DNA of 64,000 nt, taken from contig NC_021921.1 of assembly GCF_000470655.1 (NCBI RefSeq), forward strand, positions 2,170,001 through 2,234,000, written 5' to 3'. Made by a program: the position numbers and the translations under genes. Positions 21,453 through 64,000 of this stretch are shown piece by piece. This stretch comes from Halorhabdus tiamatea SARL4B (GTDB taxonomy: Archaea; Halobacteriota; Halobacteria; Halobacteriales; Haloarculaceae). Position 1 is the stretch's first letter, and every line of letters starts with the position of its first letter. A model generated the notes under the pieces. It made no database searches. It had not been told where the DNA came from and saw only the letters and a list, made by a program, of their open reading frames with translations.

Positions 21453-21878
21453 ACCGTGCGGTTGGGCGTGCGTGGTAAAAAGTACTCCCCCGACAGTATC
21501 AGGCGGGGGCCAGCTGTCGACTCAGGTGTCGTGGTGCCCGGACGGATGAGCGTCGTCGGTCCCACGTCCCTCCAGTTTTCCCCGCTCGAATGCGGCCCGG
21601 AGATCACTACGTCGATGTCCAGATCAGCGACGAACATGGTGGGTGCTTGTCCCTTCCGACGTGGCCACACTCGTTTTCGACGACGTCGGTGGCTCTGCTG
21701 TCAGTTTCGAGGACTGTATCGAACGACGCTTGCCCGAAATGGTCCGACAGTTTCGCGTCGAACCCGCTGTGATCGGGATGCAGACGCACATTGTTCGAGG
21801 GAAGCTCCCGAGAGCCCTGAACGGTTCTCCGTGCTGTCTTCGCACAACACTCTCCAGCGCTCGTCTCGTCGCTCGTGG
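21453..21878. other. Intergenic region without a convincing gene
   Basis: Short frames exist on both strands (for example a 99-codon plus frame at 21643), but none shows family motifs or a plausible start context. GC is lower than in the flanking genes. It could be decayed sequence. Confidence 0.4.
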
Positions 21879-24008: not shown

Positions 24009-24182
24009 ATGACAGAGGACGATTCACCACCGATGTCCCCAGCCCGTTTCTTCGAGGTCGTCCGATCGGCCGTCAACGACGGGTTCGAGGAGGCGATCGC
24101 CCAGCACGAACGCCGGCCGACGCCGTCGAAACTCGCTGAATTGCGAGCGACAGAAGTGCTCCGGCAGGGACCTCTACACTGA
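24009..24182 (+). CDS. Small hypothetical protein at the edge of the integrated element
   Basis: 57 residues, acidic start MTEDDSPPMSPARFFEV then a helix FEEAIAQHERRPT. No family recognised. It ends 47 bp before the integrase. An attachment site could lie here, but no tRNA is present. Confidence 0.45.
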   Translation: MTEDDSPPMSPARFFEVVRSAVNDGFEEAIAQHERRPTPSKLAELRATEVLRQGPLH

Positions 24183-38859: not shown

Positions 38860-40319
38860 CTACCGCGCCACCCGCCGCCCAAGCACGAACACCAACAGGG
38901 CAACGAGGATCGCCCCGACCAGCGACTCCCCCGCGACGAGTACCCGCGACCACGCACTCGCGGGCGAGAGGTCCCCGTACCCGATCGTCGAGAACGTGAT
39001 CACACTGAAGTAGACGTTCAACAGCACGTCACTGACGCCGGCCCACGTCCCCAGCTCCCCAAGCGACGCGATCGCGTGCGTCGTCCCGTCGGGCTCCTTG
39101 ACCCCGCCGACGAACGGGAACGTCAGCCCCGCCAGGACGATCACACCAACCCACCACGCCAACAGGCGCTTGACGCTCTCACCGTGTTTCGACAGCGCCC
39201 ACATGAGTGTCTTCACGTGCCGGCGCGGGTCGCCGCGCTCTTTCAGCAGCTTGCGTTCGGCTTCTTCCTTGCTGATGTGGTAATCTCGTGCCTCTTCCGA
39301 TAATGCGTTCTCCTCGTGTAGTGCTTCGAGGCGACGGTAAACCCATCTCGAAGCAGCGAACCGGTTGACGCCGTCGGGGAGCGATTCTGATTTCGGCACC
39401 TTTTCTTTGGACTCGGTGCCTGGATTTTCTTCATAGACACAAGTCGGGCGCGAAGCGAACGACGAACCCCTCCCGAGTGCAGATTTCACTGACTGACCAA
39501 TACGTGAAATTCGGGAGAGAGACTCACTGGAGTCATAGAACGTACTTTCACGGTCAAAAAATGTAGTTTGAGAATTGATGCGCGTGTCCTTAAAGACAGT
39601 TTCATAGAGTAGTGTGCTCGTGAATGTGGCATAACGACAGTCAGTATCCGCTAAAACGGTGTCTTGTAGGTTAGCATGCCGAAAGACTGCTCTACTCGCA
39701 TTGGCATCGGAGAGATCGGCTCCCAGAAGATTACTGTCAGTGAAATCTACGCTTCGGATGTGGGCATTGAGGAACTTGGCATACCGGAGGTCGGCATTAT
39801 GGAAGTTTGCGCTTAGAAGGTAGGCATTGAGGAAGCGGGCGTTCCGGAGTTTGGCAATGGGGAACTCAGCGTTCATGAGGTTGGCATCTGGGAACTTGGC
39901 GTTCCAGAGGTCGGCATCGGGGAACTCAGCGTTCATGAGGTTGGCATCTGGGAACTCGGCGCGTCGGAGATTAGCATCGGGGAACTCAGCGTTCATGAGA
40001 TTGGCATCTGGGAACTCGGCGCGTCGGAGATCTGCAGCAGGGAATTGAGTTCTTGTAAGCGCTGCCCTCCCAAAATCAGCACCCGGGAGAGCCACTCCTT
40101 CAAATGTGGCTCCAATCAGTCCACATTCTACGAACGAAACCGGAGTGTTTGTCTCAGTCCCACGGAGGATTGCCCCATCCAGTCGTTCCGGTCCGTCTAC
40201 TCGGTGAATGCGGAGTTCTTCACCGGTTTTGTCATTAATATCCGCATGCCAGAAACACCGGCTTGTCTCCTCATGCTCATCCCACACAGGCCGCCAGCAA
40301 CTGACGGCCTCAATATATT
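38860..40319 (-). pseudogene. Pentapeptide-repeat potassium-channel-like protein, main part (5' end cut off by ISH6)
   Basis: About 485 residues remain. A-(N/D)-L-x-x pentapeptide repeats (ADLRRAEFPDANLMNAEF and so on) fill about residues 70-240. Two helices at the C-terminus flank the K+ selectivity filter TIGYGD. A short frame can still start in the ISH6 end (MRHDQ...), so a near-complete protein might be made. The missing start is at 41766-41879. Confidence 0.8.
40312..40319. repeat. ISH6 target duplication, left copy
   Basis: AATATATT, repeated at 41766-41773. Confidence 0.9.
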
Positions 40320-41765
40320 GGTCGTGTCGCAAAGTCCTCTAGAGTTCAGTAACTGACTCCCCTGAGGAAGGGGACGCCTCTGGTGTCCACTCCGAGAGGT
40401 GCCCCATGCACGCCACAATCGACGTGCGGTTGACCGTTAGCATCGACGACGACAAAACGATACCGCTGGCCACGCTTGCCGAGTTCATCACCGATCAGAA
40501 CATCGAATCAGTTCTTCTCGAAGGACTCGTCGAGAGCCTCGACGCGGCTCGCGTCGAGGCGCTCTGTGGTGAAAAACACGCCCACGGCAACGGTGACCAG
40601 CGCTACCAACGCGCCGGTACCGATACCCGCACGGCCGTCACAACCGCCGGTGAGCACGAATTCGACCTTCACTACGTCGAAGATACCGCCGCTGACCACG
40701 ACGAACCCAGCTACTTCCGCCCCGTCGAAGATGTTCTTAGCTTCGACGGAGAAAACCGTTATCAGCAGGACATTGCGGCCAAGAGCGTCGATCTCGCTAC
40801 CTCGCTCAGCTATCGTGACGCCGCTGACCACGGCGACGGCATCCTCTCGGAGATGCCGTCGCCGACCACGATCAACCGCCGCGCCAGAGAATACGGCAGC
40901 AAGCTCAAACAGTTCCTTCCAGACTGTGTCGCTGACACAGACGCTGATGCGGTTATTCCTGACGCCACGAAGTGTCACAGTCAAGACGACGACCGCTCGT
41001 ACCACTCCGTCCAAGCCACGCTCGGCAAAGATACTGCCGAGGAGTCCCGCTCCCTGCTGGATCTCTCGGTCAACGCTGACTGGGACGAGACAGCCGCCGA
41101 CCTCGACGACATCGACGCAGTCACTGACGACGCGACGGTCGTCAGTGACGCTGAGGAGGGTATGGTCACGGCCTTTACCGACGAAAATCGCAATCACCAA
41201 CTTGATCTCGTCCACGTCGGCCGAACACTGGACTACAACCTCTGGGACGACGGCGTGTTCTCCTTGGATCGACGAAACGAGATCGTCTCGGAGGTGATCG
41301 ACGAGGTGTTCCATCTGAAGAATTCGGTCGCCAAGCACCGGCCGGAAGAGGAGTTCGCGGCGATCCGCGAGCGGATCGCGCGAACGACCGAGCGTATCGA
41401 GAAGACAGCGTGGCAGTTGGATCAGTACGGGTCAGAGAAGGCTGCGGGGTATCTTCGGCGGTGGGTGCCGTCGATCGTGACGTTTGCCGAGCAGGCTGTC
41501 GAGGGGTTCGAGGTGCCGTGGACCTCGAACCCCGTCGAACGGCTGATGGGCGAAGTCAGCAAGCGATGCAAGAACCAGTGGATGCGCTGGACAACGGAGG
41601 GATTAGAGGCGATACTCCAGCTTCGGCTGGTGAAGTACGCTGATCCAGAGCACTACCAGGCGTTCCTTGATGAACTGCTCCAGCGATCGACCAAAACAGC
41701 AATGAGCTGTGACCTCTCAATTGAGAGTACCAGAGGCAAACTCTAGACCGCTTTGCGACACGACC
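40320..41765 (+). mobile_element. ISH6-family insertion sequence
   Basis: 1446 bp with terminal inverted repeats GGTCGTGTCGCAAAG / CTTTGCGACACGACC and an 8-bp duplication AATATATT. It inserted into the 5' part of the pentapeptide-channel gene. Intact transposase, so possibly active and recent. Confidence 0.92.
40406..41746 (+). CDS. ISH6-family transposase
   Basis: 446 residues, full length for the family. The middle has DATKCHSQDDDRSYHSV, then TVVSDAEEGM, and the C-terminal TSNPVERLMGEVSKRCKNQWMRWTTEG, as in the ISH6/mutator-related DDE group. It fills the element. Confidence 0.9.
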   Translation: MHATIDVRLTVSIDDDKTIPLATLAEFITDQNIESVLLEGLVESLDAARVEALCGEKHAHGNGDQRYQRAGTDTRTAVTTAGEHEFDLHYVEDTAADHDEPSYFRPVEDVLSFDGENRYQQDIAAKSVDLATSLSYRDAADHGDGILSEMPSPTTINRRAREYGSKLKQFLPDCVADTDADAVIPDATKCHSQDDDRSYHSVQATLGKDTAEESRSLLDLSVNADWDETAADLDDIDAVTDDATVVSDAEEGMVTAFTDENRNHQLDLVHVGRTLDYNLWDDGVFSLDRRNEIVSEVIDEVFHLKNSVAKHRPEEEFAAIRERIARTTERIEKTAWQLDQYGSEKAAGYLRRWVPSIVTFAEQAVEGFEVPWTSNPVERLMGEVSKRCKNQWMRWTTEGLEAILQLRLVKYADPEHYQAFLDELLQRSTKTAMSCDLSIESTRGKL

Positions 41766-48734: not shown

Positions 48735-49384
48735 TGAACGTCGCGACCTATCACCGCGTGTCGACCGCAGACCAGAACCTGTCTCGGCAGACGGATGCAA
48801 CGGCTGAATACGTCGAAGCGAACTTTCCAGAGGCCAACGTGATGACGTTCGCTGATGCTGATACTGGTACCGACACTGACCGGGAGGCGTATCAGGACCT
48901 CATGGCTGCTGTCGACGAAGGCGAGATTGACGTGGTCGTCGTTACAGAGATGTCTCGGATCGCTCGATCGGTTCGGGATTTAGTGCGCACGGTTGAGCGG
49001 GTGCGCGAGAGTGACGTCGAACTCCATTTCATTGACGATCCGGTCGAAGTGCGTGCCGACGACGACGACCCAACTCAAACACTCATCTTGCAGGTGTTGG
49101 CTGCCGTCGGGGAATTCGAAGCCAAAATTACACAACGGCGGGTGCGTGACGGGATTGCAGCACGGAAACGGAACGACGAATATCACCATGGGCCGGCCCC
49201 ACTCGGTTTCGAGAAAGACGATGGGAGGTTGATCGAATCGGTAGAGTATGATCGCGTCTGTGCCGTGCTTGATATGGTCGATGTAGGCGAACTGAGCCAG
49301 CGTGAAGCCGCTGACCGACTGGACTGTGGCCGGAGAACCATCCGTCGGGCACTCGAAGACCGGCGCGAGTTGTACGGGCTGTAG
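48734..49384 (+). CDS. Serine recombinase (resolvase/invertase family)
   Basis: 216 residues. Catalytic Ser in YHRVSTADQNLSRQ, the arginine region VTEMSRIARSVRDLV, the E-helix ILQVLAAVGEFEAKITQRRVRDG and a C-terminal HTH (LSQREAADRLDCGRRTIRRAL). Full length. It could act at the TGGGCA sites or at the direct repeats just downstream. Confidence 0.9.
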   Translation: MNVATYHRVSTADQNLSRQTDATAEYVEANFPEANVMTFADADTGTDTDREAYQDLMAAVDEGEIDVVVVTEMSRIARSVRDLVRTVERVRESDVELHFIDDPVEVRADDDDPTQTLILQVLAAVGEFEAKITQRRVRDGIAARKRNDEYHHGPAPLGFEKDDGRLIESVEYDRVCAVLDMVDVGELSQREAADRLDCGRRTIRRALEDRRELYGL

Positions 49385-49394
49385 CCGCCACCAA

Positions 49395-49451
49395 CGACTA
49401 CATTGAGTACACCGGTCGGCAGCTGGCCGAGGAGGCCGACGACGTCTGGGG
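49395..49451. repeat. 57-bp direct repeat, left of the RHH/RelE pair
   Basis: 54 of 57 bases match 50143-50199. Both encode DYIEYTGRQLAEEADDVWG before a stop in one frame, so each looks like the end of a lost gene. Confidence 0.8.
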
Positions 49452-49543
49452 CTGATGACCTCTCTCTTGGGCCCGCTGCGTCTGCCTGATGATGGTTTGC
49501 TCCCCAAAACAGCTATTTGTACGCGCGATAGACACACGTACGT

Positions 49544-49819
49544 ATGTCAGAAACCGACGCCAACGACCCCGATCCCGAGATCGACCGGATCAACCTCCGG
49601 ATCTCGCGGTCGTTTCTCGACGTCGTCGACGAGTCCTGGCGCGAACGGGGGTTCAACAGCCGGAGCGAGTTCATCCGATATGCACTCCGCGACGCGGTCA
49701 ACAACCCAGAAGGCGCGGGCTTCTGGAAGGACCTGGCGATCAGTGAAGCCGATCTCACCGATGGCGACGTGATCTCCAGCGAGGAGATGCGGGCGACCTA
49801 CGGCCACGATGACGAGTGA
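49544..49819 (+). CDS. RHH (CopG/ParD-like) antitoxin
   Basis: 91 residues. RINLRISRSFLDVVDESWRE and SRSEFIRYALRDAV form the RHH fold; the acidic C-tail would bind the toxin. The toxin gene overlaps its end by 11 bases. Confidence 0.85.
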   Translation: MSETDANDPDPEIDRINLRISRSFLDVVDESWRERGFNSRSEFIRYALRDAVNNPEGAGFWKDLAISEADLTDGDVISSEEMRATYGHDDE

Positions 49820-50096
49820 CGACGACGCGTGGGACTGGGCGTTCTCCCCACGGGCGGAGGATCAGTTCGCCCAACTCGACGACGACACCCAGGAACGCAT
49901 CATGGACAAACTCGACGAAGTGGTCTCCTCGGAGTGGCGCGAACCCGGCGATTACCTGGAACCGCTGACGAACTCGCCGTTCAAGAAACTCCGCGTCGGT
50001 GACTATCGCCTCGGCTGCCGTCTCTTACACGACGAGCGTCTGCTTCGCGTCGAGAGTGTTCGCTCCCGAGGCGGGGCGTACACGGCCGACGACTAA
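49809..50096 (+). CDS. RelE/ParE-family toxin
   Basis: 95 residues. WAFSPRAEDQFAQLDDDTQERIMDKLDEV then FKKLRVGDYRLGCRLL and LLRVESVRSRGGAY match the RelE/ParE fold. It is translationally coupled to the antitoxin. Confidence 0.85.
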   Translation: MTSDDDAWDWAFSPRAEDQFAQLDDDTQERIMDKLDEVVSSEWREPGDYLEPLTNSPFKKLRVGDYRLGCRLLHDERLLRVESVRSRGGAYTADD

Positions 50097-50142
50097 CCCC
50101 TTCCCGCTACCGACCCCTTCTCGCCGATCTCCCCAGTGCGAG

Positions 50143-50199
50143 CGACTACATCGAGTACACTGGTCGGCAGCTGGCCGAGGAGGCCGACGACGTGTGGGG
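50143..50199. repeat. 57-bp direct repeat, right of the RHH/RelE pair
   Basis: Second copy, 748 bp from the first. It runs to the stop just before the HicA gene end. Confidence 0.8.
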
Positions 50200-50204
50200 G
50201 TAAC

Positions 50205-51918: not shown

Positions 51919-52035
51919 ATGCAGCACTGCAAGTGCTGTGGCACCCGACTGAACCGGTTCAAGGTCCGGGTGTTCGGCTCGACGTACTGTACCGACTGCG
52001 CACCGCTCTCGGCCGTAACGGGGGTGACAGCGTAG
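51919..52035 (+). CDS. 38-residue zinc-finger protein
   Basis: MQHCKCCGTRLNRFKVRVFG then YCTDCA: two CxxC pairs. Its stop abuts the next ATG, so it leads the structural-gene operon. Confidence 0.6.
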   Translation: MQHCKCCGTRLNRFKVRVFGSTYCTDCAPLSAVTGVTA

Positions 52036-52428
52036 ATGGCGTTCGGTAAGATCGATCTCAACGACGCGGTCGTGAGTCCGTTCTTTGTCCTCGCGAGTGG
52101 CGTCAGTGTCGGTCTGTTCGACCTGACGCTGTTCGGGTTGGACTTCGCCGACCCGCTGTTCCGGCTGGGATCGGGCACGACGCTGGACTTCTCGTTCGCG
52201 GCGCTGGTCGCGATCCTCGCCGTCGGGATCGCGTACCTCACGAACGGCCCCGAACTCGACAATCTCGGCCTGGTCGAGACGTGGACGGTCGCGATCACGG
52301 TCCTACTCGTGCTGGGCCAGCCGTTCGTCCCGCTGCTGGACTCGATCCTCCAGTCGAGTCCAGTCGTCGGTCTGGTCGCGCTCGTGATTCAGGCAGGTGG
52401 ATTCTACACGCTCAGTTACCTCGGGTGA
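52036..52428 (+). CDS. VP3-like four-helix membrane protein, copy 1
   Basis: 130 residues with four hydrophobic segments. It is a clear paralogue of the next gene, sharing the plan LFDLTLFGLDFADPLF / LDLYAADLGLIDLGAPF and QPFVPLL / PPFVPFM. Size, topology and place before the spike fit pleolipovirus VP3, the inner membrane protein. Confidence 0.65.
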   Translation: MAFGKIDLNDAVVSPFFVLASGVSVGLFDLTLFGLDFADPLFRLGSGTTLDFSFAALVAILAVGIAYLTNGPELDNLGLVETWTVAITVLLVLGQPFVPLLDSILQSSPVVGLVALVIQAGGFYTLSYLG

Positions 52429-52479
52429 TCCCATGCATGCCAGATACTCACACATTCACAGTTCGCGGAGGGATCACGC

Positions 52480-52872
52480 GTGACCCAGATGACCGTCGAC
52501 GTCGAGGACTTGCTGGCGCTGCCCGTCTTCATCGCTGGGAATCTCGCCCAGTTAGACCTCTACGCCGCGGACCTGGGCTTGATCGACCTCGGCGCTCCGT
52601 TCCACACGGTCTCCGCTGGCGGCTACACGACCGAGCTATCGCTGGGCCTGGTCGTGGCGCTGGCGGCGCTGGGCTGGGTCCTGTACACGAACGACGTCGG
52701 CTTCTCCGGGTGGTCGGCCATGCAGTCCTGGCTGATCATCACCGTGGTCTGGCTGACGATCTCCCCACCGTTCGTCCCGTTCATGGGGGCACTGCTGGGG
52801 ATGGAAGTCGCTGCCACGGCGGCGATCGCCGTCCAATCGATCGGCTACATCGCGCTGCTGTACATCGGGTGA
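52480..52872 (+). CDS. VP3-like four-helix membrane protein, copy 2
   Basis: 130 residues from GTG 52480 (ATG 52489 is possible). Same length and topology as copy 1 and about a third identical by eye. Tandem duplication within the virion-type cluster. Confidence 0.65.
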   Translation: MTQMTVDVEDLLALPVFIAGNLAQLDLYAADLGLIDLGAPFHTVSAGGYTTELSLGLVVALAALGWVLYTNDVGFSGWSAMQSWLIITVVWLTISPPFVPFMGALLGMEVAATAAIAVQSIGYIALLYIG

Positions 52873-52879
52873 TTCATTC

Positions 52880-53683
52880 ATGAAACTCAACTCCAAAAAC
52901 GGTACGACACTGCGGTACGGTATCGGCCTCGGAACGCTCACACTCGCGCTCGTGCTCGTCGGCGCGATCATCGCGGGAGCGGCCGCAGGCGCGGTCGCGA
53001 CGGACACGATCGCGGTCGACGACCCAGGCAACCAGTCCGTCGACGTCACGCTGGACTTCTCGGCGGCCACGAACGCGACGGTCGCCCTGGAGTCCGGTGA
53101 GACGACGTACGATTCGACGACAGTCAGTGGGTCGGCTGGCGGTACCCAGACGGTGACACTCTCCGCGGCGACCGCGCCCCAGGGCAACGTCACGCTAAAC
53201 GTCACCGCGACCAACGAGACAGCCGTCTCGGTCAACCAGACGACCCTCGTCACCGAGCGGACGGTCTCCGTCGCGAACGCGACCACCGAGACCGTCGACG
53301 TCGACGTCGCCTACCAAGCCAACGGCACCACCGACGTCACGGTCCTCGACGACGCTGGGACGACGCTGCTGACGGACTCGATGACCTACGATGGAAGTGA
53401 CGACGACGGCGTTCTCTCCCGGTCGTTCAACGATAGTGACGGGATTCAGAGCGGCAACCTAACGGTTACGCTCGCGACAAGCCCGGCGACAGCCCACGAC
53501 TCGGTCGCAGTGGATGTCTCGCCGGTCAATGACGCCCAGACCGGCGGTGGCTGGGTGCCCGACGTGGGTGGGATCAGCATTCCCGCACCGAGCGTCGATC
53601 TCGTGCCTGGTGGAACGGCCACCCTCGCCGGCGGCGCGATCGTGCTCGTCCTGATCGGGGCAGCAATCCTCGGGCGGAACTAA
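52880..53683 (+). CDS. Surface protein with signal and C-terminal anchor
   Basis: 267 residues. Signal helix about 14-40, then a Thr/Asn/Val-rich beta domain with many N-x-T/S sites (likely glycosylated), a Gly/Pro stretch and a last helix LAGGAIVLVLIGAAILGR. Candidate second virion surface protein. Confidence 0.65.
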   Translation: MKLNSKNGTTLRYGIGLGTLTLALVLVGAIIAGAAAGAVATDTIAVDDPGNQSVDVTLDFSAATNATVALESGETTYDSTTVSGSAGGTQTVTLSAATAPQGNVTLNVTATNETAVSVNQTTLVTERTVSVANATTETVDVDVAYQANGTTDVTVLDDAGTTLLTDSMTYDGSDDDGVLSRSFNDSDGIQSGNLTVTLATSPATAHDSVAVDVSPVNDAQTGGGWVPDVGGISIPAPSVDLVPGGTATLAGGAIVLVLIGAAILGRN

Positions 53684-53700
53684 CGGGGTGATCTGATTTT

Positions 53701-55413
53701 ATGAGCACACGCAGACACATTGCGGCAGTCGCGTTGATCGCGCTACTCGTGCTGTCGCCCATCGCCTCGACGATGTCGCCGGTTGGCCCGGTGGGAACCG
53801 CGACGGCGGATTCGGATGGCTGTTCGCTCATCGAGCAGATCTTCAATCCCGCGACCTGCACTGCGGCGGAGGCGATCAACGACTTCGCCCCGAGTGAAGA
53901 GTTCGCCAACAAGCTCGACGCGTACAACAATCTCCAGCAAGCCGAATCCTACATCGACAATGGGTTGACGTCGGCCGAGAACAGCGTCTACGACGCGGAA
54001 AACCAGGGCTGGCTCGAAGCCGAGTCCGCGTTCTTCGAAGCCTACCAGGCCGGCGACAACTACACCGAGGCCAAAGAAGCCGGACTTGACGCCCTCGCCG
54101 ATCATTACGCGACCCGCCAGAAGCAGTTGATCGAACTCCAGAACAACGTCGTCACGGATCTCTACACCACGCTCAACGAGTCCAAGCACTTCTCGATGCC
54201 TGGTGACGTCAGCGCTCTCGAATACGGCATTCACACCTACTCCTACTACCCCCAGGTGGTGCTGTACACGACCGATCACGGTTATGGCTACACGCACAAT
54301 TACCCGACGACCAACACGTACACGATGTCGATCGATATCGTGGGCGTCCAGGCACAGCCCCGTGAACTCGTCGACGGCACGACCAAGCAGACCACGACGT
54401 TCAAATTCGGCTCACCGAACGAAACCTACTACGGGCTGAATAGCGACGGCACGTGGCAGGAGATTTTCTACGACAGCAACAACGAATTCTCCTACTGGAG
54501 CCAATCGCACTACTCGCTGCTCGAGGGCGAGACAGAGGTACGGATCGCCCCTAGCTCTGGAACCGATTACGACGATATGTATTGGGCGAACATCTCGTCA
54601 GTGCGAGCGCTGCACTACCCCGATGACTACCCGCTGAAAACCGCCAAAACCAACGGGATCACGGATCCCTCGCGGTGGCACGACATCTGGACTGACTACG
54701 AGGAATCCTATCAAGAGCAAAAGGCCGCCTTCGAGACCTTCGCGAACAATAGCTATCACGAACTCGAAAACGGAGGGTCGGACTTCGCGATTACGGATCT
54801 CCTCTCACGACTCTCCCAGATGAACGAGTACAGCCTCGATCTGGGTGGCAACGCCACCTTTAACGAGGGTGTGATCGCGCTCTCCTCGCAGGGGCTCGCG
54901 GCTCCCGGAGCGAATACCAGCTACATGAACATCACCTACCAGACGAGTCCCGGTGGCAATCAGACCACCGTCGACGGGATGCTGATGTCTCAGGAAGAGC
55001 CCATCGGCGGGTGGGAGACCGACGTCTGGTACAACACGACGGACGTGCCTGGTGCGCAGATCGTCGTCGAACTCGACGGCAGCCAGCACCTCGTCCGCGG
55101 GGACTTCCGCTTGAACGGTGTCTTCGATTCCCAGGGTGTTGAGATCTCCGACCCGAATCTCTCCTCACCGGATCGCGATTTCCAGGCGACGAATCTCAGC
55201 GGCCTCCGCCAGGACATCCGGAACATGAGCGATCGCATCGCCGATATTCGCAACCAGACGGCGACACCAGGCGGTGGTGGCGGTAGTGGCTCGTTTGCGT
55301 GGCCGTCGATCGGTATTCCCAATCCGTTCGCCGCGCTGGGTGCCCTCGGCCAGTGGATCGTCCTCTTCGTGGTCGCGCTGGGCGCACTCTTGCTCCTCTC
55401 GGTGGTGAACTGA
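53701..55413 (+). CDS. VP4-like spike protein
   Basis: 570 residues. Signal peptide (about 1-35), a helical N-terminal region (about 55-165) and a long beta-rich ectodomain with N-glycosylation sequons follow. A GGGGGSG linker and one C-terminal helix (about 548-568) end it. This is the layout of pleolipovirus spikes, which bind the host and fuse membranes. Position after the VP3-like genes agrees. I do not recognise a specific named virus. Confidence 0.65.
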   Translation: MSTRRHIAAVALIALLVLSPIASTMSPVGPVGTATADSDGCSLIEQIFNPATCTAAEAINDFAPSEEFANKLDAYNNLQQAESYIDNGLTSAENSVYDAENQGWLEAESAFFEAYQAGDNYTEAKEAGLDALADHYATRQKQLIELQNNVVTDLYTTLNESKHFSMPGDVSALEYGIHTYSYYPQVVLYTTDHGYGYTHNYPTTNTYTMSIDIVGVQAQPRELVDGTTKQTTTFKFGSPNETYYGLNSDGTWQEIFYDSNNEFSYWSQSHYSLLEGETEVRIAPSSGTDYDDMYWANISSVRALHYPDDYPLKTAKTNGITDPSRWHDIWTDYEESYQEQKAAFETFANNSYHELENGGSDFAITDLLSRLSQMNEYSLDLGGNATFNEGVIALSSQGLAAPGANTSYMNITYQTSPGGNQTTVDGMLMSQEEPIGGWETDVWYNTTDVPGAQIVVELDGSQHLVRGDFRLNGVFDSQGVEISDPNLSSPDRDFQATNLSGLRQDIRNMSDRIADIRNQTATPGGGGGSGSFAWPSIGIPNPFAALGALGQWIVLFVVALGALLLLSVVN

Positions 55414-55417
55414 ATCC

Positions 55418-55984
55418 ATGTATCGCCGAGAGACTGGCATCGTAGCAGTACTCGCGGCTGTCCTGCTACTCATGGGGACAACGGCCGCGGTCCTGCCGGC
55501 GACGGGTGCAACGGCGACGACAGTGTCGTTAGACGGTGCCCTGTATCAAAACGAGCCAGGATCGGGAGAGTACCTGGTGAAGGCGAAACTCAACAACACG
55601 GGATCCGAGGCTCGGACTGTCACGGTCAACTGGACCATCGGTGGCACTCAGATCGCCGAGAAGACGGTCACCGTCAACGCTGGAGAGGATACCTATTACT
55701 CAAAAGCGCTGAACTGGACTCAGTTAGAGCCTCACGCTGGTCTCGATGGGACGTTCGTTGCCCATCTCGAGGGGACGGCCCAGAGCCACGAATTCGCCTA
55801 TGAATCGATCCCGTACGAACCCTCGACGACGGAGTCACCGGGCGAAACGACCACGACCGAATCAAGCGTCGAGACGCCCATCGGTAGTACTGGCGCGATC
55901 CTCCCCGCGTCAGGAGTTCCGCTGTGGGCTCAGATTGGCGCGATCGCAGTTATCGTACTCCTGCTGCTGTCGATTCTCACGTAA
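55418..55984 (+). CDS. Membrane-anchored surface protein
   Basis: 188 residues. Signal helix, a CARDB-like sandwich (YLVKAKLNNTGSEARTVTVNW), a Thr/Glu stalk (TTESPGETTTTESS) and a C-terminal helix. Starts four bases after the spike. Confidence 0.6.
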   Translation: MYRRETGIVAVLAAVLLLMGTTAAVLPATGATATTVSLDGALYQNEPGSGEYLVKAKLNNTGSEARTVTVNWTIGGTQIAEKTVTVNAGEDTYYSKALNWTQLEPHAGLDGTFVAHLEGTAQSHEFAYESIPYEPSTTESPGETTTTESSVETPIGSTGAILPASGVPLWAQIGAIAVIVLLLLSILT

Positions 55985-55986
55985 CC

Positions 55987-56529
55987 ATGATCCGACATAC
56001 TACTCTCACCCTGGCGGTGCTCGCGGCCGTCCTCCTCGTTGGACTGACGGGCCCCGTCGCCGCACAACAGGGCACGACGACACCCAACGCGACCGACGCG
56101 ACCGAAACGGAACGCATCGACGCCCAGACCACACTGCTCGACTCGAGATACAATGCCACTACCGGGATGGCCTACGTCGAGATTCAAAGTGACGCCCTCC
56201 AAGAGATCGCCGTCACCGACGGGTCGTATCTGATGCAGGGTGGTGAAGCCACGACCCGGTCGGTAATGGTCAAACCAGGCGAGACCACGACGATCGAGAT
56301 CCCTGCGGACATGGTTCGCGGGTACGTCTCGCTGTCGATCGGCACGTCCCAGACATTGTACGGTGAACTCATCGAGACCGGGCAAGGATCACTATTCACG
56401 GGCGAGGCCACGTGGGGGACGGCCCAAGCCGCGGGCGCGGCCGGATTCGCGGGCGGGCTTTCGATCGTGGTCGTACTCGCGTACTGGCGCGTTCGCGGGG
56501 GCAAGCAGGAGGTGGAGCAAGTCGTATGA
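55987..56529 (+). CDS. Signal-bearing membrane protein
   Basis: 180 residues. Signal helix 7-25, beta domain, and a C-terminal helix near 145-168 followed by basic residues. It overlaps the next ATG by four bases. Comparable small ORFs sit between spike and NTPase in pleolipoviruses. Confidence 0.6.
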   Translation: MIRHTTLTLAVLAAVLLVGLTGPVAAQQGTTTPNATDATETERIDAQTTLLDSRYNATTGMAYVEIQSDALQEIAVTDGSYLMQGGEATTRSVMVKPGETTTIEIPADMVRGYVSLSIGTSQTLYGELIETGQGSLFTGEATWGTAQAAGAAGFAGGLSIVVVLAYWRVRGGKQEVEQVV

Positions 56530-57344
56530 CCGACTCGAAGAACCCGCTGGTGGACGACTCGCGACCGGCCTGGCTCGAACTCGCGATCGCCTACCGCTAC
56601 TGGATTGGCGGTGGATTGACGGTTACGTTCTTGACGCTCCTTCTCGGCGTCGTGGTCTTCGGCCTCGAACTGCCCGAGATTTCTCTCAACCAGCCGACGA
56701 AGGTGTTCCTCTTCGGCGGCCTGCTCGCAGCGATCAGCGGCGCGCTCCCAGCGGCGAAGATCATCGACTGGCTGTACGACCCACCGAAGCGGTACGTCGT
56801 CTCACTCGGCCTCAAAAAGTCCGAAACCCCGGCGATCTACGAACTGACACCGACCGCGTGGGAGTCAGTGTGGGTCGAAGAAGGCGATCTCTACCAGTGG
56901 GAGAACACGAACCACCCGGTCTACGAGGCCGAGAGCTTTGATCCCGAGAATCTGATCGCCGAAGGCACGTGGCGCGGATCGAAATCCGACCGTGAACTCC
57001 TCAGAGCCGAGAAGAAAGTCGAGGAACTCCGCGAAGAAATCGAGAAAGAGGCCGATATGTCCATCGACCTCGAACTGTCGATCGCCAGCCGGGTTCGCAA
57101 AGCGACGAAGGCGATCGGCCAGGTCATCATCGAGGACTACGCGGCCACGTCCACCTACGAGGGCGAGCGCGTCCGGGACGTCCTCAGCGACCTCCGCCAG
57201 GACGTCGAGGACGATACCGGCGATGGACCACACACGACCGGTGAGAAGCCAGTCGTCGGTGAGACCGAGCTGGAAGCGGCTGTCGACGGGCTCCAAGCGG
57301 CGGCCGCAGAAGCTCGGCCGGATGGGGGTGAAGAAAGTGGCTGA
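56526..57344 (+). CDS. Two-helix membrane protein with cytoplasmic coiled coil
   Basis: 272 residues. Helices about 27-50 and 60-82, a YDPPKRYVVSLG boundary, then a soluble part with a coiled coil (LLRAEKKVEELREEIEKEAD). It overlaps the NTPase start. Probably a partner of the NTPase at the membrane. Confidence 0.65.
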   Translation: MTDSKNPLVDDSRPAWLELAIAYRYWIGGGLTVTFLTLLLGVVVFGLELPEISLNQPTKVFLFGGLLAAISGALPAAKIIDWLYDPPKRYVVSLGLKKSETPAIYELTPTAWESVWVEEGDLYQWENTNHPVYEAESFDPENLIAEGTWRGSKSDRELLRAEKKVEELREEIEKEADMSIDLELSIASRVRKATKAIGQVIIEDYAATSTYEGERVRDVLSDLRQDVEDDTGDGPHTTGEKPVVGETELEAAVDGLQAAAAEARPDGGEESG

Positions 57345-58470
57345 CGCCGATTCGACGAAAGTCAGCGAACAGGTCACCTACGCCGCGGGCCAGTTGCGCG
57401 AGCGCCTGGGCGAGATCGACGAAGCGCTCCCGCACGCGGGCGTCGTCCAAGACGACGACCGGCGGGCGCTGCTGTCCTGGCTTGCAACGATCTACGGCGA
57501 CGACATCACCGAGACGGAACTCTACCGGGACCTCGTCGCTACCGAATCCACCGACTCGCTGACCGAGGCCGTCCAACACGGGAACGTGAGCCAGATGCAG
57601 TACGCGGTCGGTCTTGTGAACGGCGACGACGACGCGAGCGAGACGAACACCCAGGCGTGGATGCGCGACGCTGTACTCGACGAGGCCTACGTTGGAATGG
57701 TCGTCGGCGGCATGGGCACGGGCAAGACCGCGTTCGCGGCCGACCGCGCGGACGACTGGCACATGGCCACTCGGGGCCGCGTCGCGACGAACGTCCGGAG
57801 TCTGGCCGAACGCAACGATGTCCCGGAGTTCGTCGACGACTGGGACGGCCTGGAGGCGTTCTTCAAAGAAGCGCGAACGGACGTGCTGTTCGTCCTCGAC
57901 GAGACCGACCAGTATCTCTCGGGGAAGGGCGAGAACCAGCAGCGCGGGGACGCGCTCGCGAACGCGCTCAAACTCGTCCGCAAGGGCGAAGCGCCCGAAG
58001 GGACCCAACGCGGCATCCTGCTCGTCGGGCAGTCGATCAAGGGTGCGACCAAGGAACTGCGGCGGCTGGTCTCGATGAACGGACACCTCTGGCGGAAGAC
58101 CGCCAAAACCACCGTCGAAGTGTACGACGACGTTACTTCGGGCGAACTCGACCGGATGCACCCCGTGAAAGTGATCCAGGGGGTGCAGGACGCCCGCTGG
58201 GACTTCCACAGCGGCGAGGAGTCGACGTTCGACTTCGACGGTGCCCTCGACGACGGCGACGGCGATCAGGACGGTAACGCCGGTGAACTCACGCGAGACC
58301 AGGCGATCGCCCAGGTGATCCGGGCCTACAAGCCCTGGAGCGATGACACCGGTGTCACGATGCGCGAGGCCGGCACTATTGTCGACAAGTCGGCGGGCTG
58401 GGTCTCCGATCGGATCAACGAGTGGCGCGGGGGCCAACACCGCGATCTCGTGAACGACCCGACCGCCTGA
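57337..58470 (+). CDS. VP8-like P-loop NTPase
   Basis: 377 residues. Walker A GGMGTGKTAF near 123-131, Walker B DVLFVLDETDQYL, sensor-like GILLVGQS. The C-terminus carries an HTH (VTMREAGTIVDKSAGWVSDRINEW). GTG 57337 was chosen because GGGGTGA lies just upstream; ATG 57322 is also possible. Pleolipoviruses end their conserved cluster with such an NTPase. Confidence 0.7.
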   Translation: MADADSTKVSEQVTYAAGQLRERLGEIDEALPHAGVVQDDDRRALLSWLATIYGDDITETELYRDLVATESTDSLTEAVQHGNVSQMQYAVGLVNGDDDASETNTQAWMRDAVLDEAYVGMVVGGMGTGKTAFAADRADDWHMATRGRVATNVRSLAERNDVPEFVDDWDGLEAFFKEARTDVLFVLDETDQYLSGKGENQQRGDALANALKLVRKGEAPEGTQRGILLVGQSIKGATKELRRLVSMNGHLWRKTAKTTVEVYDDVTSGELDRMHPVKVIQGVQDARWDFHSGEESTFDFDGALDDGDGDQDGNAGELTRDQAIAQVIRAYKPWSDDTGVTMREAGTIVDKSAGWVSDRINEWRGGQHRDLVNDPTA

Positions 58471-58747: not shown

Positions 58748-59830
58748 ATGGATTCGGGGCGATTGTCGTATCTGTTCACAGCGGTCGGCGTCGGGTTCGT
58801 TGCACTCGCGCTCACGCAGTTCCTCACGGCCGATCTTTCGACGATCCCTCGATTCCACATCGTGAGCAACCTCCTCGTTACCGGCGGCGTCGGTACTGGC
58901 CTGATCTACACTGGCTATTGGCACTCTCAGCGATCGTTCGAGCCAGCGCAAATCCGCCGTATCCTCGGCTGGACAGTCGGCGGGTGTGTGGTTCTCACTG
59001 CGGAAACGATCATCACTCAGCCCCTCGTGCAAGAACGGATAACTCGAAGCGAACTCGTCCATATTCTCCAGGTCAACGTCGGGACGGGCTTGCTGTTCGG
59101 CGCGATCGCCGGCTCCTACGGCGCGCGAGCACTCGCCAACGCGGAGACGGCCGCACGGGCCGAGGCCCGTCTCGAAGCACTCGAGAACGAGCAAGAGTAC
59201 TGGAATCAACTGAATACGGTCCTGCGTCACTACATTCTCAACTCCGTGACGGTCATCAACTATCGCATCGACCAGCTCCGCTCAGCTGTTCGGGACGATG
59301 CACACCTCCATCTGGATACGATTGCAGATCGCATGCAAACGATCGCGACGATCGGCACGCACGTCGATCGCCTCGGGCCGTCTCTCCGGGAGGAAGAAGA
59401 TTCGTGTTCGACTGTCTCTGACTTACAAGCCGTGTTCGAGGCGGCGATAGCACGGGCAGAGATCAGCGCGCCGGTCACGATCGATACACCGCCTGCGGGC
59501 AAGGTGGTCTGTGTTGGCGATGGCATCGAGAACGACCTTGCACTTCTCGTCGAGGCACTGGCGTCAGTGATGCATGAGGACGGCACGATCACGTGTACGT
59601 GTACTTCGACGGCTGACACGATCACGTGCCAAGTGACCGCCACCCCTGCGGAACTCCCACCAGCGGTCGAAGCCGCAATCTTCGAACCGATCGAGCGAAA
59701 GAGTGGCCTCAAACTCTACCTCGCCAAGGTGTCGATGGATACCTACGCTGAGCTGGAGTTGCGGCAAAACTGCGACGAGACCGTCCAGTTCGAAATTATC
59801 TTCGACAAGGCGACGGACGCGGAAACGTGA
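58748..59830 (+). CDS. Membrane sensor-kinase-like protein in the provirus region
   Basis: 360 residues. Four helices (about 5-115), a helix linker, and an H-box-like VLRHYILNSVTVINYRID. The HATPase part is degenerate and lacks clear G boxes. Related in layout to the chromosomal kinase at 10288. It may have become a regulator without kinase activity. Confidence 0.65.
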   Translation: MDSGRLSYLFTAVGVGFVALALTQFLTADLSTIPRFHIVSNLLVTGGVGTGLIYTGYWHSQRSFEPAQIRRILGWTVGGCVVLTAETIITQPLVQERITRSELVHILQVNVGTGLLFGAIAGSYGARALANAETAARAEARLEALENEQEYWNQLNTVLRHYILNSVTVINYRIDQLRSAVRDDAHLHLDTIADRMQTIATIGTHVDRLGPSLREEEDSCSTVSDLQAVFEAAIARAEISAPVTIDTPPAGKVVCVGDGIENDLALLVEALASVMHEDGTITCTCTSTADTITCQVTATPAELPPAVEAAIFEPIERKSGLKLYLAKVSMDTYAELELRQNCDETVQFEIIFDKATDAET

Positions 59831-60375: not shown

Positions 60376-62130
60376 TCAACCGATCCAGTCGTAACCGTCG
60401 ACGCGGATCTTTGCGTCCGTCGCGTCGATGTCGCCGCGTTCGAGGTACCGGCCGATATCGGCGGCCGAATAGACCAACTGATCGACGCGCACCCAGCGAT
60501 CGCGATCGGCCTGCTCGTCGCTGGCCGCCTGGTCGCGATCGTCGTTCCCATCGGGAGCCTCACTGTCCTCGTCGGCCTGGGCCTGCTGCTCGCGCCGCTG
60601 TTCGCGCCGCTCCTCGGCAGCCTCGCGGATGTCCTGGAGATCACGATCGGGGTGGACTTCCTGCAGTTTCTCCCGGGAGTTGAGTCGTAACTCCTCGTTG
60701 TGGAAGACGACCAACCGCGGGTAGGTGGTCCGCCGGAGGACGTCTTCCTCCTCGAACTCCCGGACGATCTCGCGCACGTAATCGCGCGAGTAGCCGGTGG
60801 CCTCGACGAGCTGGTCGTAGGTCGCGCCGTCCTGGGTTGCGACCACCCAGAGGACGTCCCAGCGGGCCTTCGTGAGGCTACTGTAGCAGGTCTTCAGAAT
60901 CCGACGCTCGCGTTCTTCGTTGGCTTCCTGCATGGCCTGTCGCCAGCCCGTCGGGACGACCGTCTCGATCATCTCCCGCTCGTCGGGCTGGTAGTAGTCG
61001 TCGGGCTGCAGGCGGTAGTGCTCGATCCCGCTGCGGATCGCGACGGTGTTGACCAACTGCCGCAGTGTCGCCCGCAGCGCCAGCCACTCGTCGACGTGGG
61101 GCAACTTCGTGCCGTCGTCCGTGCCGGCGAAGAAGGCCTCGAGCTTCGGCTCTGCGAGGCGACTGTCCCGTGGCGTCCCGGCGACGCGATAGACCTTCAG
61201 CCCCAGCTTGTAGCCCTCGCGCGCGGCGAAGCCGGCGAAGCCGATCCGGTCGAACATGTCCGAGACGACCCGTTCCTCGACGGCGGCCCCGTTCCGGTAG
61301 CGCCCGCCACCGTCGGCGTCACCCGACCCACCGAACTCGATTAGCGTCCGCATCGAGCGCAGCCGACTCACGACGGCACTCATCATCTCTGAGGGGATGC
61401 GGTGGTGAACCTCGCCCTTCCAGACTCGCCAGGAGTCTCGGTTCATCGTCTCCCACGCGGGCGACTCACGATCGAGCGCGGCCATCGCGAGCGTGACGAT
61501 CTGGATCGTCCGGACGAGGGCCTCGTCGGCCTCGGCGTAGGTGGTCTGGGTCCGGAACTTCGTCCCCTCGCCGTACTGGCAGATCAGTGGGTTGCCGTCC
61601 TTGTGGACGAGAGCCTCGTTCTGGGGCTGGATCCAGGACTGGAAGGAGACGGGCGTGCGGAGCCCGTCGTCGATCGCGGCGGCGGGATCCGCGACGTCTG
61701 CCTCGGGATCGTAGCGGGCGACCTGCAGGCTGTACTCGTAGCGTTGTCCTTCGACGCCGTCGTCGCCGGCGCGCTCGCCGACCTTCCAGCCCTTCGATTT
61801 GAGCACGAGATGGGCTGGGAAATCGTCGTGCAACCAGTCAACCCGCTCGTGGACGTCCTCGAGTAGGACGTACGGCTCATTGTCGGGTTCGCCGACATGC
61901 TCGCGCCAGGCCCGCCACAGTCGCTTGTACGCGGAGTCCTCGCGATCGTCGGTGTGGTCGTTGATGACCACCTCGACACCCTGGCCGTGGGCGATCGGAT
62001 CGGGGTAGTCGAGTTCGTCGTACGTGCCGGCGGCACAGGCGGGCGGCTCGTCGCCTTCGGTGGCGAGCGTAGTCTGTCCGGCCGGCCCGATGTCCTGTGT
62101 AGAGCCTGGGGTCGACGATGCCCTACTCAT
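60376..62130 (-). CDS. Large replication-type protein with winged helix (candidate Rep)
   Basis: 584 residues. A winged-helix region is clear (KARWDVLWVVATQDGATYDQ, LVEATGYSRDYVREIVREFEEEDVLRR, then RLVVFHNEE). An Arg/Glu/Gln-rich coiled coil and an acidic stretch follow, then a short second DNA-binding-like end (VYSAADIGRYLERGDI). The N-terminal 350 residues have no recognised motif. Long proteins of this type are frequent next to pleolipovirus-like clusters, so a replication-initiation role is inferred. Confidence 0.6.
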   Translation of the reverse strand: MSRASSTPGSTQDIGPAGQTTLATEGDEPPACAAGTYDELDYPDPIAHGQGVEVVINDHTDDREDSAYKRLWRAWREHVGEPDNEPYVLLEDVHERVDWLHDDFPAHLVLKSKGWKVGERAGDDGVEGQRYEYSLQVARYDPEADVADPAAAIDDGLRTPVSFQSWIQPQNEALVHKDGNPLICQYGEGTKFRTQTTYAEADEALVRTIQIVTLAMAALDRESPAWETMNRDSWRVWKGEVHHRIPSEMMSAVVSRLRSMRTLIEFGGSGDADGGGRYRNGAAVEERVVSDMFDRIGFAGFAAREGYKLGLKVYRVAGTPRDSRLAEPKLEAFFAGTDDGTKLPHVDEWLALRATLRQLVNTVAIRSGIEHYRLQPDDYYQPDEREMIETVVPTGWRQAMQEANEERERRILKTCYSSLTKARWDVLWVVATQDGATYDQLVEATGYSRDYVREIVREFEEEDVLRRTTYPRLVVFHNEELRLNSREKLQEVHPDRDLQDIREAAEERREQRREQQAQADEDSEAPDGNDDRDQAASDEQADRDRWVRVDQLVYSAADIGRYLERGDIDATDAKIRVDGYDWIG

Positions 62131-62461
62131 CGTCGATCACCGGCGGGAGCGCCACGGTCAGTTCGTCGACGCCGTCGAGAGTGGCCTCGACACGGCGGTA
62201 GGACTCCGGCGCGATCACGGCGGGGGCCGGGACGATCACGTCCTCGCGTCGGTGGTGCGGACACCGGTAGCCGAACACGGGGACCTCGTCGGCTTCGAAG
62301 GTGGGCGCGAGGAGTGTCGTCGGCACGCGGGGCGTCCCCCACTCCTCGAGTGCCTGCCCGCACAGCGGACAGTAGACGGCGAGGGTGTCGTACACCTCGA
62401 CGTCGGGCGCGACGACCGCGACCCGCGGGAGCGCCTGCGGGTTCGACTGCGAGATCGTCAC
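62123..62461 (-). CDS. 112-residue zinc-binding protein
   Basis: CPLCGQALEEWG and YRCPHHRR form one zinc site. GTG 62461 overlaps the previous stop and has GGGGTGG just upstream; GTG 62470 is an alternative. It overlaps the Rep start by eight bases. Confidence 0.6.
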   Translation of the reverse strand: MTISQSNPQALPRVAVVAPDVEVYDTLAVYCPLCGQALEEWGTPRVPTTLLAPTFEADEVPVFGYRCPHHRREDVIVPAPAVIAPESYRRVEATLDGVDELTVALPPVIDDE

Positions 62462-62529
62462 GCCAGCCACCCCCCAAGTCCGGTGGATTTACGGGACAAC
62501 GGCTCTAAAACGTCGATAGCGAGCGTCAT
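62458..62529 (-). CDS. 23-residue mini-protein
   Basis: MTLAIDVLEPLSRKSTGLGG. Supported only by four-base overlaps with both neighbours and a GGAGGAGGGGG stretch upstream. Confidence 0.35.
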   Translation of the reverse strand: MTLAIDVLEPLSRKSTGLGGWLA

Positions 62530-62675
62530 GGCGCACCCCCTCCTCCTTCGGTTGGAGGGAACGTCCACTGGACCGACACCCGCTCGCCCTGCTCGACATC
62601 GTAGAGTTCGGATGCGCGGACGAAGGTAGGGCTTCGTCCACAGTCGCCGCGGCCCGACTTTGGGTCGCGGGTCAC
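62526..62675 (-). CDS. 49-residue hypothetical protein
   Basis: V/MTRDPKSGRGDCGRSPTFVR, then a beta stretch VSVQWTFPPTEGG. Coupled by four-base overlaps on both sides. Confidence 0.5.
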   Translation of the reverse strand: MTRDPKSGRGDCGRSPTFVRASELYDVEQGERVSVQWTFPPTEGGGGAP

Positions 62676-62986
62676 GACTCGACACCTCCAGCAGCGGCGA
62701 ATCTATCGAGCCCGGTCTGGACGTCCTCCGGGTCCATCGACGCCTCCGTCCCGTCGGACTGGAGTTTCAGGAACGCATCACAGTCCCAGTTCCAGCAGGA
62801 CGTCCATGACGGCGATTTCGCTGGTGGAACGTAGATCCCGACATCCTTGGACTTGCCACAGACGGGGCACGCGACAGTCACGCGCTCGCCGAAGGGCAGC
62901 TCGATCACGGCGTCGACCCGTTCCTCGCGACGGCGGCGAGTCAAGGCGCGCGCGTCCTCGGGGATCTGGGTACTCTCACTCGCCAC
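62672..62986 (-). CDS. 104-residue zinc-binding protein
   Basis: CPVCGKSKDVGIYV and SCWNWDCDAFLKL make one zinc ribbon. GTG 62986 was chosen because GGAGGTGA lies directly upstream. Confidence 0.6.
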   Translation of the reverse strand: MASESTQIPEDARALTRRRREERVDAVIELPFGERVTVACPVCGKSKDVGIYVPPAKSPSWTSCWNWDCDAFLKLQSDGTEASMDPEDVQTGLDRFAAAGGVES

Positions 62987-63092
62987 GAGAATCACCTCCC
63001 GAGCGTCGCAATCGTGCGGCAGCCTCGGCCCACGTCTCGCCCTCGCCGTCGGGCACGCCGATGTCGTCGAGATCGACGTCGTAGTGGCTCAC
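62976..63092 (-). CDS. 38-residue hypothetical protein
   Basis: Acidic start SHYDVDLDDIGVPDGEGE, then an Ala/Arg helix. Four- and eleven-base overlaps with its neighbours. Confidence 0.5.
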   Translation of the reverse strand: MSHYDVDLDDIGVPDGEGETWAEAAARLRRSGGDSRGE

Positions 63093-63406
63093 CGCTCATC
63101 ACCCCCCGCATCATGGTGGTTCTCCCCGTCCGCAGAGTGCGTCCGCTGAATGTACGCCGGATCGAGATCGTCGCCGATGTACCCCTGCTGTTGGAACCAG
63201 CGGTAGCTCTCGGCGTCCATCACCCCGGTCTCGTACCAGAGTCGATAGACGCGATCGGGCGTGAGCCACCGGAACGGTGCGAGATACGCGCGTTTGACGA
63301 CTGCCAGCCGCCGCAGGACGGGCGCGGGGAGATACCGCTTGGAGACCTCGATGAGGGCCACGAACGCCAGCGCGTAGGCCAGTCCGATCACGAGACTGTC
63401 GATCAC
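63089..63406 (-). CDS. Single-helix membrane-anchored protein
   Basis: 105 residues from GTG. One N-terminal helix (IDSLVIGLAYALAFVALIEV), a basic segment and an aromatic soluble part. The ribosome-binding GGTGGTGAGCG lies within the GCATGC palindrome region. Confidence 0.6.
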   Translation of the reverse strand: MIDSLVIGLAYALAFVALIEVSKRYLPAPVLRRLAVVKRAYLAPFRWLTPDRVYRLWYETGVMDAESYRWFQQQGYIGDDLDPAYIQRTHSADGENHHDAGGDER

Positions 63407-64000
63407 CGCTCACCACCCCCCGCATGCGGGTGGGGGTCAGACGGCCCGATCGCGCCCGCGAGCGGCCCCTGGTAGTATGCACTCGCTTGCTCGTCCCAGA
63501 CCAGCCACCCGGCGGCCCGGGCGTCACGCAGGCCACGTTGCAGCGTTCGCTCACCGCTGACGTCGAGACGATCGGCGACGACCCTACTCGTCACCGGTGT
63601 CTCGCCGGTCAGCGCTGCGACGACGGCCCCGTGGTAGCCACGGACGCGTCGTGACGGTGAGGTAACACTATCGCGCCAATATTGTCGACCCCCCGGGGTG
63701 TGATCGTCGAAGAGTGCGGTCAGTGGCCCGGACTCGTACTGGTGGGCGCGTGGCCCGCGAGCGAGCCACCCCAGCGCCAGGGCGTCTTGCAACCCGCGCT
63801 GGATCGAGCGCTCGGTCGACTCGACGGCGAGCAGCGCGTGGACCTGCCGGCGCGTGAGTGGCGGCTCGTAGAACGACAGGTAGGTCGCCGCGATGTGGAA
63901 GGTCTGGATCCGGAGTGGCCGATTTGCGAGCGGCCCGTGCCAGAGGTGGCGTGCCGTGTCGTCGCGACGGCCGAAGCACTGCGGGTTTCCACACGGCCGG
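63403..64000 (-). CDS. Double winged-helix protein (partial, runs off right edge)
   Basis: About 198 residues visible. CGNPQCFGRRDDTARHLWHG opens the visible part. Two similar HTH units follow: ALLAVESTERSIQRGLQDALALGWL and, 85 residues on, DRLDVSGERTLQRGLRDARAAGWL, each followed by a short wing. Probably a DNA-binding regulator of the provirus. Confidence 0.65.
   Translation of the reverse strand, partial: RPCGNPQCFGRRDDTARHLWHGPLANRPLRIQTFHIAATYLSFYEPPLTRRQVHALLAVESTERSIQRGLQDALALGWLARGPRAHQYESGPLTALFDDHTPGGRQYWRDSVTSPSRRVRGYHGAVVAALTGETPVTSRVVADRLDVSGERTLQRGLRDARAAGWLVWDEQASAYYQGPLAGAIGPSDPHPHAGGGER
63415..63436. promoter_or_regulatory. GCATGC palindrome (copy 4)
   Basis: Core CCCGCATGCGGG at 63419-63430, with C and G runs. 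It encodes the end of the upstream protein (DPHPHAGGGER) and supplies the SD of the gene ending at 63089. Confidence 0.55.

Follow-up and report, generated by a model that had tools for sequence, protein, structure and literature searches.

The locus examined here raises the question of how an integrated virus came to carry, side by side, two genes for the same kind of internal membrane protein. It lies in Halorhabdus tiamatea SARL4B, in a 64,000-base stretch (the window; contig bases 2170001-2234000, the contig having 2,815,791 bases and the genome 3,146,160), where positions 51919-58470 hold a same-strand, closely spaced gene run whose edges are the start of an open reading frame (ORF) for a CxxC protein and the stop codon of a nucleoside triphosphatase (NTPase) gene. 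A preliminary description had taken this run for a pleolipovirus-type structural cluster with a duplicated VP3-like gene. Pleolipoviruses are membrane-vesicle viruses of salt-loving archaea; in this family the spike carries out binding and fusion, VP3 coats the membrane from inside, and the NTPase presumably acts in assembly or packaging. The analysis led us to conclude, with good confidence, that the element is an integrated Pleolipoviridae virus at the 3' end of a tRNA-Glu gene in a Haloarculaceae haloarchaeon, in which the two VP3-like proteins, VP3a and VP3b, were most likely joined by recombination and are probably made together as a mixed inner coat.

Pfam and NCBIfam named almost nothing in the operon besides AAA on the NTPase, and the PHROG families that its products matched are unnamed; their identity was set by scanning the proteins of isolated viruses against the same families. 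HRPV-1 VP4, ORF6, ORF7 and VP8 were assigned to phrog_2231, phrog_1938, phrog_5952 and phrog_1979, respectively, and HGPV-1 VP2 to phrog_3232 (8e-40). The families found in the operon (Table 1) are shared with HRPV-1, HRPV-3 and HGPV-1. Membership of Pleolipoviridae is defined by four conserved genes in the order spike, ORF6, ORF7, ATPase (PMC10599561), and this order was present at 53701-58470 with all four families common to HRPV-1, the spike being preceded by the VP3-like internal membrane protein in two copies. In tblastn the NTPase matched 16 pleolipovirus records, and among viral contigs, phages and plasmids the close relatives were either none or only isolated pleolipoviruses. For some flanking genes the very high PHROG scores suggest that this provirus may itself be in PHROGs, and there the scores are not independent evidence. 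A predicted model of the spike, of low confidence, matched only the HRPV-6 and HRPV-2 spikes in the PDB at E < 0.001 (6qgl, 1e-10; 6qgi, 5.5e-10), with template modelling (TM) scores of 0.32 to 0.37 over the full length, and among viral models only HRPV-11 VP4 at that threshold (1.2e-15); the PHROG match of the spike is independent of this model. The families in common with HRPV-1 and HGPV-1 and the structure matches of the spike bear out the cluster and the gene order of the preliminary description. The cluster is a pleolipovirus structural module, its viral identity is firm, and the element is ordinary in plan for an integrated pleolipovirus.

The two VP3s, both of about 130 residues, multi-helix and in tandem, also proved to be as described: both matched phrog_3232, and they matched each other at 25% identity with an E value of 2e-11 and a z of 14 against shuffles, far above chance. 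Each resembled the lone VP3 of some other provirus more than it resembled its neighbor (loci and genomes used for comparison are given L and G numbers). VP3a was 53 to 55% identical to the sole VP3 of L047, from the same-genus genome G006, and about 45% identical to the sole VP3 of L103 from Halovenus salina, while the closest relative of VP3b was the sole VP3 of L041 (G008), with 48% identity. In a tree of 58 VP3s, VP3b grouped with L041 and L118 (98/93); VP3a joined L047 and L103 on an unstarred branch (92/84). A topology in which VP3a and VP3b were forced to be sisters was rejected (p-AU of 1.3e-5).

The closest relatives shifted along the operon, from L047 for VP3a, the spike and ORF6 to L041 for VP3b and to L037/L104 and L103 for ORF7 and the NTPase. 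L047 shares the gene order and has the nearest VP3a (55%), spike (45%) and ORF6 (50%) and a surface protein with 44% identity, but it has only one VP3, lacks the 188-residue protein, has a distant ORF7 and NTPase, and carries an HRPV-3 ORF6-like gene and another Rep. The closest ORF7 (43 to 60%) and NTPase (55 to 57%) were those of L103 and of L104 from Salinibaculum litoreum; in L103 the VP3 is followed by the surface protein, as here, but both loci have one VP3 each and spikes that are distant or unmatched. L041 is without a VP3a-type gene and has another protein, of 174 residues, before its spike. The genome also shows recombination at the scale of single genes within the structural operon.

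To place the pair among other genomes, VP3 doublings were sought more widely. About 75 matches to the VP3 profile came from the 146 genomes searched in the host's family, and this genome alone had an adjacent full-length pair. No adjacent copies appeared among the phrog_3232 matches that were listed for 392 genomes of the order. Among 137 fetched loci, some of which repeat the same place, 126 had a VP3 (77 distinct sequences) and two had adjacent copies, namely, the window and L168 (G321). The extra gene in L168 is a divergent VP3 relative, and L132 (G436) has a similar one. In L190:9330-10102 (G321) and L132:1498-2245 (G436), an HRPV-1-type VP3-like gene lies directly upstream of VP3. The idea that VP3 pairs occur nowhere else does not hold, since G321 and G436 have a second VP3-like gene beside VP3. 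A fused form was found in His2, whose gp26 (236 residues, about eight helices) consists of two VP3-like four-helix halves with 32% identity (z of 20); the VP3 profile matched both halves of gp26 and of its Hardyhisp2 counterpart (L055:8809-9519, L004:8801-9511), and a profile built from the extra genes of G321 and G436 and the gp26 halves found HRPV-1-type VP3s. VP3-type doubling is uncommon without being confined to this genome, and at least three forms of it exist; among the genomes sampled, only this one had two HGPV-1-VP2-type genes side by side. The literature searched, in which few subscription journals were covered, described neither a genome with two type I proteins nor a doubled-VP3 makeup of gp26. 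Among the loci compared, L108 is a contig filed as Rhizobium sp. S152 that carries haloarchaeal pleolipovirus genes, probably through contamination or mislabelling.

Because of the 25% identity, the different VP3 lineages and the rejected sister pairing, recombination between pleolipovirus lineages is the most likely source of the pair, as judged from these alignments and trees, and the word "duplicated" in the preliminary description, in the sense of a recent copy, is not supported. A recent tandem duplication of one VP3 gene in this virus, followed by divergence, would fit the adjacency, equal length and common family of VP3a and VP3b, but so low an identity, the greater nearness of each to the single VP3 of another provirus and the p-AU value make it very improbable. 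The pair might instead be the relic of an old duplication in a common ancestor, one copy having been lost in most descendants, and the VP3-type doublings in other lineages (G321, G436 and, fused, His2 gp26) are in its favor. Many losses would be required, however, the doublings elsewhere pair an HRPV-1-like VP3 subtype with a VP3, and the neighboring genes are mosaic, as recombination predicts, so we regard this origin as unlikely, if less so than a recent copy.

The preliminary description had also pointed out, ahead of the spike, an additional surface protein rich in glycosylation sites, and the 267-residue product of 52880-53683, with 11 N-x-S/T sites, agrees with this. Relatives of this protein were found directly downstream of VP3 in G002, G003, G006, G052, G371, G424 (two loci) and Halovenus salina. 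It is a regular surface accessory in this clade, one that accompanies VP3 as a rule in related proviruses. Its model has a beta-rich ectodomain; naming the fold from database matches was attempted, but the TM-scores were too low and these matches were not used. The 188-residue anchored protein had no relative in the provirus loci and only weak, unrelated matches in the genomes of the family, and it is the orphan of the operon.

The view that such a virion would surpass the known ones in membrane complexity was overstated. HGPV-1, HHPV3, HHPV4 and HRPV9 are reported to combine one spike with two types of membrane protein (PMC7547991; PMC5867852), internal membrane proteins have been divided into type I and type II (PMC10599561), in His2 there are two proteins of each kind, spike and membrane (PMC7221443), and the surface protein recurs beside VP3. 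HGPV-1 is similar in its core gene order, in having two small membrane proteins with one spike (PMC7547991), in a VP2 of the family of VP3a and VP3b and in a Rep-type gene on the opposite strand. It differs in that its second membrane protein is of another small type (the 67-residue VP3, phrog_7558), whereas the provirus has two of the HGPV-1 VP2 type and an added surface protein. In His2 and Hardyhisp2 (Gammapleolipovirus), a protein with a signal and an anchor stands directly before the spike, as here; in His2 this is VP28, a second spike (PMC7221443), and no sequence similarity was found between it and the 267-residue protein. Their VP3-like halves are fused in one gene, unlike the separate genes of the window, and they also differ in PolB replication and a linear genome.

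The boundaries of the insertion were defined by comparison within the genus. Similarity to all six other genomes began at 64250-64251, the edge of tRNA-Glu; in G005 the other tRNA flank resumed about 258 bases on, matching window position 21492 and below, and in G006 the same two flanks (the tRNA side and the side of 21492) were about 2.3 kb apart. The 14-base sequence TGCTCCGGCAGGGA was found beside a tyrosine integrase gene (24157 and 24229) and again, exactly, at 64251-64264, the last 14 bases at the 3' end of the tRNA gene. Given the synteny break at tRNA-Glu and the repeat beside the integrase, the insert is a roughly 40-kb island with the virus module at its right, tRNA end. Pleolipoviruses are often found integrated at tRNA genes, and several such proviruses can be induced (PMC7911831). 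Of the far end and the integrase that the preliminary description had proposed to look for past 64 kb, the end was there, and the integrase was not: none was found beyond 64251, where host genes and synteny resume, and an integrase lies at 24229. A middle att site, which would set the virus apart from the remainder of the island, was looked for near 48 to 51 kb, and none was found.

Upstream of the operon, two C-terminal tails of a tyrosine integrase carry a near-identical 57-bp repeat and have the position and orientation of the integrase in provirus L044. The tails (49381-50200) flank a CopG/RelE-type toxin-antitoxin pair, and a small serine recombinase gene (PF00239; 48734-49384) precedes the first, at the site where one would look for the main part of the tyrosine integrase. 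To judge from these remnants, the virus's own integrase has most likely been lost, and the virus is probably trapped unless the island integrase mobilizes the whole 40 kb. Elsewhere in the island, reading of the translations pointed to three further genes: that at 32438-35434 for a large protein of TPR repeats with what looks like an NTPase motif, that at 38860-40332 for a pentapeptide-repeat protein whose end resembles a channel, and a transposase-like one at 40406-41746. Defence cargo is a possible role for the remaining island genes (24157-51000).

Between the NTPase and Rep-type genes lies a HisKA_4TM kinase-like gene, and a kinase-like gene of 474 residues occupies the corresponding place in L037. 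The Rep-type protein was 29 to 33% identical to its counterparts in L051 and L053, and HGPV-1 ORF14 matched the same family, phrog_15150, at only 1.5e-6 and over part of its length, a remote link to the HRPV-3 ORF9 / HGPV-1 ORF14 type of Rep that marks Betapleolipovirus or the proposed Deltapleolipovirus. No Pfam or PHROG family of a rolling-circle Rep (Alphapleolipovirus) or PolB (Gammapleolipovirus) was matched by the large genes tested between 43 and 62.5 kb. An HRPV-3 ORF6 homologue, a mark of Betapleolipovirus, did not turn up between the NTPase and Rep genes in gene calls or tblastn; we claim the family Pleolipoviridae and not this genus. The preliminary description had not included the Rep-type gene, the anchored protein at 55418-55984 or the terminus of the element beside tRNA-Glu.

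Table 1. Features of the provirus and of the island that contains it (window positions)
Feature	Position	Strand	Evidence or remark
CxxC (zinc-ribbon-like) protein, 39 aa, operon head	51919-52035	+	Translation
VP3a, VP3-like (HGPV-1 VP2 family, type I) internal membrane protein, 130 aa	52036-52428	+	phrog_3232, 3.8e-30
VP3b, second VP3-like protein, 127-130 aa	52480-52872	+	phrog_3232, 5.8e-8; GTG start at 52480 or ATG at 52489
Surface protein, 267 aa, 11 N-x-S/T sites	52880-53683	+	N-terminal hydrophobic signal-like segment, C-terminal anchor helix
Spike (VP4/VP5-like fusogen), 570 aa	53701-55413	+	phrog_2231, 1.1e-103
Anchored protein, 188 aa, Thr-rich stalk, at HRPV-1 ORF5 position	55418-55984	+	Two hydrophobic segments
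HRPV-1 ORF6-like anchored protein	55987-56529	+	phrog_1938, 4.5e-36 (HRPV-1 ORF6 itself, 1.7e-33)
HRPV-1 ORF7-like protein, two helices	56526-57344	+	phrog_5952, 2.7e-77 (HRPV-1 ORF7 itself, 8e-100)
VP8-like AAA NTPase, 382 aa	57322-58470	+	phrog_1979, 1.3e-91; HRPV-1 VP8 in same family
HisKA_4TM histidine-kinase-like gene, four transmembrane segments, weak ATPase domain	58748-59830	+	PF16926, 2.3e-9; virus membership uncertain
Rep/"transcriptional regulator"-type gene, 584 aa	60376-62130	-	phrog_15150
Small right-arm genes, running to 64188	62123-64000	-	Gene calls; parts with relatives in L041 and L050
tRNA-Glu	64251-64325		Right end of element
Left att-like repeat of whole island	24157-24170	+	Exact 14-mer
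Island tyrosine integrase, adjoining left att repeat	24229-25443	+	NCBIfam XerA-type, 4.8e-11 (below cut-off); phrog_1, 2.5e-16
Lost tyrosine integrase C-terminal tail, copy 1	49381-49452	+	75% identical to end of L044 integrase
Lost tyrosine integrase C-terminal tail, copy 2	50123-50200	+	85% identical to end of L044 integrase

We propose that the operon would make a membrane-vesicle virion in which the spike would bind the host surface and fuse the membranes, VP3-type proteins would line the envelope from within, and ORF6, ORF7 and the AAA NTPase would probably serve assembly and budding. Recombination would have brought in the second VP3 lineage, the simplest account, and VP3a and VP3b, if made together, would probably form a mixed inner coat. 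The analysis shows which genes are present and in what order, the right boundary, the VP3 phylogeny and the shift in nearest relatives along the operon; expression of the operon, the presence of both VP3s in the particle and any division of labor between them are inferred.

Several observations weigh against this proposal. The VP3 tree is one of short, divergent membrane proteins with weak deep branches, so that an old duplication with differential loss keeps some probability; the spike model has a predicted local distance difference test score (pLDDT) of only 52; an HRPV-3 ORF6-type gene was not found between the NTPase and Rep genes, either in gene calls or by tblastn with the relatives' proteins; and virion production is beyond what sequence can show. 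With that gene missing and the integrase broken, the element may be decaying. In that case the structural genes would still be open, virions would no longer be made, and VP3b would be a functionless leftover of recombination. The remnant integrase tails and the serine recombinase gene that stands in the integrase's stead, the missing HRPV-3 ORF6-type gene and the mosaic island with its transposase-like gene all fit such decay, but the structural ORFs are all intact and have a strong codon signal, with a high GC content at third codon positions that is highest in VP3b. We consider decay a serious contender, though the less probable reading. A secretion, pilus or vesicle system that is not viral could likewise contain signal peptides, anchored proteins and an ATPase. 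It is, however, extremely improbable, as every core gene belongs to an HRPV-1 or HGPV-1 family in the same order and the spike model significantly matched pleolipovirus spikes only. The profile search proposed in the preliminary description gave the same answer: no Pfam or NCBIfam secretion or pilus model reached its cut-off, and pleolipovirus families matched strongly.

For general biology the finding of an integrated pleolipovirus with two VP3 lineages is a modest one, adding one more provirus to a known family. The role of VP3 in pleolipovirus assembly is little understood, and a genome with two natural VP3 lineages, along with relatives in which VP3 is doubled in other ways, offers a direct test of VP3 pairing or of specialized subunits. 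The doublings raise the tentative idea, which we hold to be possible rather than probable, that two different VP3-family proteins act together in pleolipovirus envelopes and that such pairs have arisen several times as a recurring design principle of the inner coat. If this is true, paired VP3 would be a recurring design of the inner envelope.

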